Source: Deltaproteobacteria bacterium GWA2_38_16 (GTDB taxonomy: Bacteria > Bdellovibrionota > JACOXK01 > 2-02-FULL-40-11). From it: a stretch of 22,892 nt of DNA. A program made the position numbers and the translations under genes. The notes beneath the pieces are model-generated. The model did not search any database. It was not told the origin of the DNA and saw nothing but the letters and a program-made list of their open reading frames with translations. The stretch spans positions 3,721 to 26,612 of the forward strand of contig MGPE01000014.1 in the NCBI GenBank assembly GCA_001797335.1, written 5' to 3'. Positions 9,937 through 15,968 of this stretch are shown piece after piece (position 1 is the stretch's first letter; each line of letters starts with the position of its first letter).

Positions 9937-9958
9937 ATTCGGAGGGGGGGAGATTTGA
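9937..9958 (-). repeat. Exact 22-nt duplicate of the tRNA-Ser 3' end
   Basis: Bases 9937-9958 are identical to 10126-10147, which covers the last 19 nt of the tRNA-Ser gene (acceptor strand and part of the T arm) plus 3 flanking bases. The copies are direct repeats 189 bp apart. After the match this copy continues with one base missing relative to the tRNA. Tyrosine-recombinase attachment sites leave such scars at tRNA 3' ends, but no integrase is present; the copy may also be one arm of the palindromic element at 9944-10057. Confidence 0.6.
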
Positions 9959-10057
9959 CTTTCGGTCAAAATCGCATTAGCGATTTTGCCTCCAGTCGGG
10001 GCTCGCTTGCACCTGCTAAAGCAGGTAACCGCAAGACTGCGCCATTCAAATTCCCCC
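9944..10057. other. Highly structured non-coding element of nested perfect hairpins
   Basis: Outer arms ATTTGA (9953-9958) with G-run 9944-9950 pair with TCAAAT (10046-10051) and CCCCC (10053-10057), one base bulged. Inside are three further structures. TTTGAC/GTCAAA (9954-9959 and 9965-9970) has a 5-nt loop. CAAAATCGC/GCGATTTTG (9967-9975 and 9980-9988) has loop ATTA. A compound stem pairs CAGT (9993-9996) with ACTG (10036-10039), CTTGC (10006-10010) with GCAAG (10031-10035) and ACCTGC (10011-10016) with GCAGGT (10021-10026) around TAAA. No convincing gene lies here. It could be a mobile palindromic (MITE-like) element or a structured RNA. Some helices are mutually exclusive. Confidence 0.55.
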
Positions 10058-10088: not shown

Positions 10089-10128
10089 ACATTAGATACT
10101 CCTCATTTTCTCATTTCATTCGAAAATT

Positions 10129-10215
10129 CGGAGGGGGGGAGATTTGAACTCCCGAGGCCCTTTCGAGCCTAACGGTTTTCAAGACCGCCGCGTTCAACCG
10201 CTCTGCCACCCCTCC
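10129..10215 (-). tRNA. tRNA-Ser (anticodon UGA)
   Basis: An 87-nt class II tRNA. The acceptor GGAGGGG pairs perfectly with CCCCTCC, with G as discriminator. The anticodon loop CTTGAAA gives UGA (10181-10179), reading UCA and related serine codons. The long variable arm has a 6-bp stem (AGGCTC/GGGCCT, one G-U) capped by GAAA, and the T arm is GGGAG-TTCAAAT-CTCCC. The short D stem has one A-C mismatch. CCA is not encoded. The 5' end is 6 nt downstream of the serS stop on the same strand, so the tRNA is probably processed from the serS transcript. Confidence 0.97.
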
Positions 10216-14438: not shown

Positions 14439-15968
14439 ATGAAATCCTTTATTATTGGTACAGCGGGGCATGTAGATCATGGAAAAACAGCGTTAGTTAA
14501 AGCTCTGACCTGTATTGATACCGATAGACTCAAAGAAGAAAAAAAACGGGGAATCAGTATTGAGCTGGGCTATGCACCTTTAAAATTATCTGAGGATATA
14601 ACAGCTGGTATTGTAGATGTCCCTGGTCATGAGCGACTCATTAAAACCATGGTCATGGGAGCCACACAAACGGATTTAGTTTTATTTATTGTTGCTGCCA
14701 ATGAAGGAATGAAACCCCAAAGTTTAGAGCACTTATCCATTTTTTCTCTTTTAGGCGTAAAGAATGCCATTTTGGTGATTACAAAAATAGATTGTGTTGA
14801 AAAATTGGAGCTCCCTTTTATTATCCAAAATATTCAAATAGTCACCAAGGGGACTTTTTTAGAAAATGCCCCCGTTGTTTTAACCTCGAGTTACACAAAA
14901 GAGGGTGTGGAAGAGTTAAAACAAAAAATTAGCGAATTTTCTAAACAATTTTTAGAAACCCAAAGTTCTCATAGAGCAACGCTTCCCTTAAGAATTCCCA
15001 TTGATCGAGTATTTACGTTAACAGGGTTTGGGACCATTGTGACAGGACCACTTCTTTTTGGGCAGATATCTAAAAATGATGAAATAGAAATTTATCCTCA
15101 TCATCTTAAAGCCACGATCCGCCAAATTCACGCTTATGGGAAAGAATATGATATTCTCAAAGCTCCCAGTCGTGTGGCTTTGAATTTAAGAGGTGTTTCA
15201 AAAGAAGATTTAAAAAAAGGACAAGTGATTGGATCACCACACACTTTTAAGGCGATTTCTAAAGCCTCTGCAAAAGTAACCTTTTTAAAACCTGTTCAAG
15301 GGCAAGAATTTATTTTTCATACAGGAACGATGCGAACGAATGTTATTCTTAAGAAGAAAAATATACTTCAATTTTCAGACCCTCTAGTTCTTCAGCCAGG
15401 GGATAAATTTATTTTACGAAGGGATACAACGCTGGGAGGCGGGGAGATTGTAAATGTTAGTGTCAATACCCACAAATCAATAAAGAGAGGGGGAGAGGAG
15501 GTCTTCTGGAGCGGAAGTAAAGCGCAGCCCCTTCAAGGGCGAGCCATGAAGCGAAAGACGACCTCCTCTCCCCCTTTGCTTGGGGATAATGGGCAGGCCT
15601 TGAGGATATTAGAATATTTTAAAAAAACAGATACCTCTTCTTCCTGGATCCCTATTCATACGGATGATATATGTAAAAATATTCAAATGCCTCGTTTGGA
15701 AATCTCCGAAGCTCTCCTTGATCTTATAAAACAAGCAAAAATCATACGTCTTCCTCAAGGATATTATCTTTCTTGCAAACAAGGAGATGAGTTGAAAGAA
15801 AAAATAAAAACTTTTTTCAAAACTAAAGGTGAGCTGAGCGTGGTGGATATTAAAGAAATTTTTTCTATTTCCCGGAAATATGCCATTCCCTATCTTGAAT
15901 TTTTCGATGAGCAAAAATGGACAATCAGACGAGGAGATGTCCGCATTCCTTGGAAGATTTTAGAGTAA
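14439..15968 (+). CDS. selB: Selenocysteine-specific elongation factor SelB, with an in-frame palindromic insert
   Basis: A 509-residue GTPase that delivers Sec-tRNA to UGA codons marked by a SECIS hairpin. G1 is GHVDHGKT (10-17), followed by the SelB-specific CIDTDRLKEEKKRGISIELGY (25-45), DVPGHE (60-65) and TKID (115-118). Domains II-III follow (VFTLTGFGTIVTGPLLFGQI). The last ~32 residues (SRKYAIPYLEFFDEQKWTIRRGDVR) match the SECIS-binding winged helix. SelB usually has 600 or more residues with four winged helices; here only ~130 residues follow domain III, so the array is reduced to about two. Residues 350-379 are encoded by a palindromic element (15488-15575). A GGAAG ribosome binding site precedes ATG. 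selA, selC and selD are not in the window. The 3' end overlaps nuoN by 9 bp, convergently. Confidence 0.93.
   Translation: MKSFIIGTAGHVDHGKTALVKALTCIDTDRLKEEKKRGISIELGYAPLKLSEDITAGIVDVPGHERLIKTMVMGATQTDLVLFIVAANEGMKPQSLEHLSIFSLLGVKNAILVITKIDCVEKLELPFIIQNIQIVTKGTFLENAPVVLTSSYTKEGVEELKQKISEFSKQFLETQSSHRATLPLRIPIDRVFTLTGFGTIVTGPLLFGQISKNDEIEIYPHHLKATIRQIHAYGKEYDILKAPSRVALNLRGVSKEDLKKGQVIGSPHTFKAISKASAKVTFLKPVQGQEFIFHTGTMRTNVILKKKNILQFSDPLVLQPGDKFILRRDTTLGGGEIVNVSVNTHKSIKRGGEEVFWSGSKAQPLQGRAMKRKTTSSPPLLGDNGQALRILEYFKKTDTSSSWIPIHTDDICKNIQMPRLEISEALLDLIKQAKIIRLPQGYYLSCKQGDELKEKIKTFFKTKGELSVVDIKEIFSISRKYAIPYLEFFDEQKWTIRRGDVRIPWKILE
15488..15575. repeat. 88-bp palindromic element inserted in frame within selB
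   Basis: AGGGGGAGAGGAGGTC (15488-15503) and its exact reverse complement (15560-15575) form 16-bp perfect arms around a 56-bp centre that itself contains CCCTTCAAGGG and imperfect pairing. The element is translated without a stop as residues 350-379 of SelB, a low-complexity Gly/Lys/Ser/Pro stretch (GGEEVFWSGSKAQPLQGRAM and onward) between domain III and the first winged helix. This is the behaviour of Rickettsia palindromic elements, though the sequence family is not claimed to be the same. Confidence 0.75.

Follow-up and report, generated by a model that had tools for sequence, protein, structure and literature searches.

A translated palindromic element in selB belongs to a family with a conserved core and locus-specific arms

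The protein-coding palindromic repeats of Rickettsia (RPE) and Wolbachia are short palindromic repeats lying in frame within conserved genes. RPE have also been inserted in RNA genes, namely those of tmRNA and RNase P RNA, and for protein-coding palindromic elements such as RPE target duplication is listed as unknown and the mode of insertion is left open (PMC2229807). Template switching between inverted repeats is known to homogenise their arms (PMC8604942; PMC8794818), and fold-back inverted insertions of about 5–34 bp have been documented at DNA breaks in yeast (PMC11724301). Here we describe palindromic elements from outside the Rickettsiales by which a translation factor and signal peptides have gained stretches of peptide.

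The window, that is, the whole stretch of 22,892 nucleotides analysed here, contains a selB gene of 509 codons whose frame stays open across an 88-bp palindrome. Its product matches GTP_EFTU, GTP_EFTU_D2 and SelB-wing_3 in Pfam, and its top PDB match is SelB (4zu9). The gene and the parts of the element, which we call F1, are the following.

14439 to 15968, + strand: selB, selenocysteine-specific elongation factor of 509 amino acids carrying the in-frame insertion (ORF, Pfam and PDB)
15488 to 15575, + strand: F1 hairpin element, encoding SelB residues 350–379 in a predicted disordered linker
15488 to 15503, + strand: left arm, AGGGGGAGAGGAGGTC
15508 to 15527, + strand: conserved core, 5' half, GGAGCGGAAGTAAAGCGCAG
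15528 to 15539, + strand: variable apical stem-loop, CCCCTTCAAGGG
15540 to 15553, + strand: conserved core, 3' half, CGAGCCATGAAGCG
15560 to 15575, + strand: right arm, exactly complementary to the left one, GACCTCCTCTCCCCCT

The element consists of a perfect 16-bp inverted repeat around a 56-nt spacer; inverted repeats of at least 16 bp within 260 bp were seen in 0 of 100 shuffles of the window. Its predicted RNA fold has an energy of −55.7 kcal/mol (z about −5), and three of its six reading frames are open, including the one used by selB. The position, the arms and the open frame are as given in the preliminary description, which had also placed some 30 additional residues in the stretch joining domain III to the winged helices. 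The predicted structure agrees: in an AlphaFold model built on a shallow four-sequence alignment, residues 344–383, which follow the last strand of domain III and precede the first helix of the winged-helix part, have a pLDDT of 29–46, so that the insertion-encoded residues 350–379 most likely sit in a flexible or disordered linker. This segment had been expected to be missing from the SelB of relatives, and the protein of the nearest complete relative (L010, also the gene of G005), 56% identical overall, indeed falls short by about 25 residues in the linker. The length of the linker, a soft measure, is compatible with the insertion of the core plus one arm.

We then looked at which parts of the element recur. 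The inner part of the left arm, GAGGAGGTC, is common to two other copies in the host genome (a third has GAGAAGGTC), and the outer part is specific to the locus. Across 19 aligned copies TAAAGCGCAG in the 5' half of the core and CGAGCCA in the 3' half, which includes an ATG, were invariant; the apical stem differs in the other copies, yet it is complementary there too. The consensus centre reads GGAAGTAAAGCGCAG, then a variable complementary apical stem, then CGAGCCATGAAG. F1 was found in six copies in the host genome (G000), 16 in G003, four in G001, two in G005 and at least eight in G006. A covariance model (E up to 1e-4) returned 6, 16, 3, 2 and 8 of them, respectively, and no copy in G002, G004 or G007; in G001 a fourth copy, which lies at the end of a contig, came from a pattern search. 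In 191 genomes of the phylum, pattern searching gave 21 genuine copies, all in G000, G001, G003 and G005, members of the host's own family; four further matches elsewhere had no arms and were set aside as chance. The arms had at first been taken as the repeat. Other copies do exist in the host genome, but it is the core that they have in common; since their outer arms change from locus to locus, most of them would escape a search based on the arms only. The idea of an in-frame, RPE-like palindrome outside Rickettsia was borne out, with further copies in the genome and translation within selB, and no distant SelB was seen to carry the segment without palindromic DNA.

F1 lies in both orientations, within genes, at gene ends and between genes. 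It is in frame within conserved protein genes: selB, a comEC-like gene (L104), pabB (L099) and genes for signal peptides. At L105, L094, L098, L108, L111 and L092 it lies close to, or at, the N-terminal signal-peptide region in genes for exported proteins, where the core may supply the ATG (ATGAAGCG or ATGGCTCG). Among sister genomes, which are assemblies, several of them fragmentary, its presence is patchy; in dctP of G001 the element is cleanly absent from three aligned relatives (G000, G003 and G005), the native arm being ambiguous. A 265-kb sample of G005 held one already known F1 element and no other palindrome of at least 16 bp. The F1 core was not found in viral contigs, and no element matched Rfam at gathering thresholds. 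A selected, non-mobile DNA or RNA structure, such as a regulatory hairpin or a protein site, would account for the conserved core and the compensatory stems; the occurrence in both orientations within, at the ends of and between genes, together with the patchy presence and the lack of an Rfam match, makes this very improbable.

Another palindromic structure of the window lies beside tRNA-Ser.

9944 to 10057, no strand assigned: two-hairpin element beside tRNA-Ser, related but distinct, sharing GGCTCG...CTGCGC
9937 to 9958, no strand assigned: direct repeat of the tRNA-Ser 3' end, 22 bp; the second copy, 10126 to 10147, overlaps the tRNA gene

Shared sequences had been taken as a hint that the two elements form one class. 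They do share GGCTCG and CTGCGC around a hairpin, a motif present 10 times in the host genome against 2 for the reversed control, but the tRNA-side element has direct repeats of the tRNA 3' end and is therefore a related or convergent type, not strictly the same class. Three copies of this two-hairpin type were found, at the 3' ends of tRNA-Ser (the window), tmRNA (L052 1379–1602) and an apparent intron-bearing tRNA (L056 1442–1618), with direct repeats of the RNA 3' ends of 22, 18 and 19 bp, respectively. The sharing of GGGGGAGA, on the other hand, looks coincidental, as the G-run arm corresponds to the 3' end of the neighbouring tRNA-Ser. Beside the direct repeat of L056 there is a group I intron (1666–1866; Rfam RF00028, 61.8 bits), apparently inside a tRNA gene uncalled by ARAGORN.

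A census of inverted repeats in stretches of G000 (417 kb) and G003 (312 kb, contigs partly picked for matches) indicated that nearly all those with arms of at least 16 bp are core elements. It revealed a second core family, F2 (GGGAGGATCYACACCGGGCGGAGGGGCCC), of which 27 exact copies are spread over the five genomes that carry F1, with one diverged copy in G004. A third core, F3, was seen in pabB. The linker of pabB is an insertion hotspot, with F1 in G005 (C71), F3 in G000 (C6:260974) and G001 (C143) and none in G002; G000 and G001 carry their cores at one position of the gene, in opposite orientation. In G006 (L325–L354) there are 46 occurrences of a single outer palindrome end, CAAGAACNTAAG; of the 30 such loci read, nine contain F1, eight contain F2 and 13 have a different content, F3 being among these. 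These G006 elements are mosaics with exchangeable cores. Two C-termini, SAQDDRACQDD of purS (L091 1571–1855) and CHPERSEGS of a microcompartment-shell-like protein (L002 1844–2134), resemble the ends of another translated repeat.

We then compared the arms. In 31 measured F1 and F2 copies they are 15–35 bp long (median 23). In three related genomes the arms vary by locus around a constant core and yet remain perfectly complementary. Between the copies of G003, identity drops to 0.26–0.33, that is, background, by about 20 nt from the core, and self-complementarity within copies stays at 0.91–1.00 out to 30 nt. Inner arms are common to four G000 copies and are inherited in subfamilies; in G006 most of the arm sequence is shared and co-varies between copies; and the F1 and F2 arms of G003 are weakly similar (gapped alignment, the observed score being reached by 0 of 200 mononucleotide shuffles). 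These three observations indicate that part of the arm diversity, and perhaps a large part, comes from transmitted arms that drift fast and in concert. In orthologous copies the two arms co-change at 3/3 and 4/6 of the changed positions. Such co-changes and the inversion of the pabB core are both known outcomes of template switching between inverted repeats (PMC8604942).

We also considered an artefactual origin, in which the elements are chimeric inverted repeats produced during sequencing or assembly. Library adaptors or amplification can yield inverted repeats around a constant sequence. This explanation is scarcely credible here: the apical stem varies with compensation, the arms are only 15–35 bp long, reading frames are kept and different assemblies share orthologous insertions.

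Filled and empty versions of the same site could be aligned at two places, both within one genus (G001, G004 and G005). Between purS and purQ, F2 is present in G001 and absent in its sister G004. The left arm, ATAAGAGATGAAAAGATTTATCTC, matches ATAAGAGATGAGAAGAATTAT of G004 (randomisation p 0.0005) and the right arm has no counterpart there (p 0.67); about 17 nt past the copied arm are unexplained. In the signal peptide of a btuF-like gene, F1 is present in G001 and G005 and absent in G004; at this site the native arm is the right one (p 0.002 and 0.007) and the left one is not native (0.7). Comparison of the aligned sites thus shows, in both cases, one arm that corresponds to the native target and another that reads as its inverted copy. 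At two other places (F2 at C18 of G001 against C64 of G005, and C6 of G001 against G004) the flanks are too rearranged to assign a native arm.

Could the core instead have inserted into the tips of palindromes already present in the genome? The varied contents found behind a single outer end in G006 (9 F1, 8 F2 and 13 others including F3 at 30 loci) would fit such a scenario, as would the YPAL elements, whose targets are at or next to dyad symmetry (PMC2229807). Yet the census has almost no core-less palindrome with arms of at least 16 bp, and the empty purS-purQ site of G004 holds no palindrome of arm length, so we consider this explanation improbable.

The same sites bear on another view, in which these are ordinary RPE- or MITE-like elements whose arms travel with the core and drift fast as each arm can be rewritten on the model of its partner by template switching. 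The inner arms common to four G000 copies, the shared and co-varying arms of G006 and the co-changed arms of orthologous copies are all in its favour. It would nevertheless require very different rates within about 30 nt in G003, where near-identical cores and apical stems are bordered by unrelated outer arms, and two loci have an arm that agrees with the empty site and another that does not. We therefore regard it as rather unlikely.

Taken together, these results lead us to propose that the selB element is probably a protein-coding palindromic element like RPEs, and that DNA synthesis by fold-back and template switching both generates its arms and maintains their perfect pairing. The mobile unit would be the conserved core with roughly the inner 10–20 nt of the arms. 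At insertion, DNA synthesis would fold back onto the target beside the core, the outer arm of one side being the native sequence and that of the other side an inverted copy of this native arm, with no duplication of the target site in direct orientation. Template switching from arm to arm would later keep the arms perfect as their sequence drifts. Arm copying would presumably take place at the moment of insertion, and the selB copy itself may have arisen by such fold-back copying of its target. Its insertion would have survived because its length keeps the frame, this frame has no stop and the linker is flexible.

As for the machinery, several candidates were examined. Direct repeats flanking the arms of the 31 F1 and F2 copies average 4.55 nt against 4.58 for the null. 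Reverse transcriptase (PF00078) was found in none of the five carriers and only in the non-carrier G007, which discards a retroelement such as a group II intron, a retron or a DGR. A Y1 transposase was not found in the carriers G001, G005 and G006, some assemblies being incomplete, and is present in F1 non-carriers; it was thus rejected as mobiliser. A MITE was rejected as well, the outer arms being at background identity in G003 and the 31 copies having no direct target duplication. With no reverse transcriptase, no Y1 enzyme that tracks the elements and direct repeats at chance level, the possibilities left are the host's own replication or repair and an enzyme that has escaped recognition; template switching by the host replication or repair machinery is the candidate that we put forward. 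More tentatively, the elements may possibly represent a new mobile class, in which a hairpin core joins a target strand and the polymerase turns, copies 15–35 nt and rejoins, giving an inverted target duplication while the element itself has neither transposase nor reverse transcriptase. The yeast insertions (PMC11724301) and the template-switch events (PMC8604942) are precedents for fold-back and template-switch chemistry by analogy, and not evidence in these genomes. Natural filled and empty sites, together with at least two core families showing the same arm behaviour, make the insertion chemistry readable from sequence.

How do these elements compare with known systems? Perfect inverted repeats in functional genes also occur in the mitochondria of Nematomorpha; there, however, both arms reportedly code for conserved protein, and the abstract describes no shared core (PMC6649704). 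The yeast fold-back insertions are likewise short inverted copies of flanking DNA (about 5–34 bp), but that case is eukaryotic and experimental and has no conserved mobile core (PMC11724301). Quasipalindrome mutation by template switching also homogenises arms and inverts spacers, as in pabB, where the core is turned round with respect to the gene between G000 and G001; the cases cited here, in contrast, modify resident repeats and spread no conserved core. REP/BIME sequences mobilised with RAYT (Y1) are dispersed hairpins too, and the mosaic arrangement of G006 is alike, whereas F1 arms are not conserved and the Y1 transposase was missing from three carriers. MITEs (Correia/NEMIS, RUP, ERIC) are likewise dispersed in the genome, small and non-coding, and end in inverted repeats, but their defining conserved terminal repeats and direct target duplication are both missing in the measured F1 and F2 copies. 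The closest likeness, that to RPE, is drawn from features and not from RPE sequences; F1 differs in its lineage, in its constant core with locus-specific arms, and in the native arm and inverted copy seen at two loci. What is novel with respect to this known kind is the locus-specific, partly target-copied arms.
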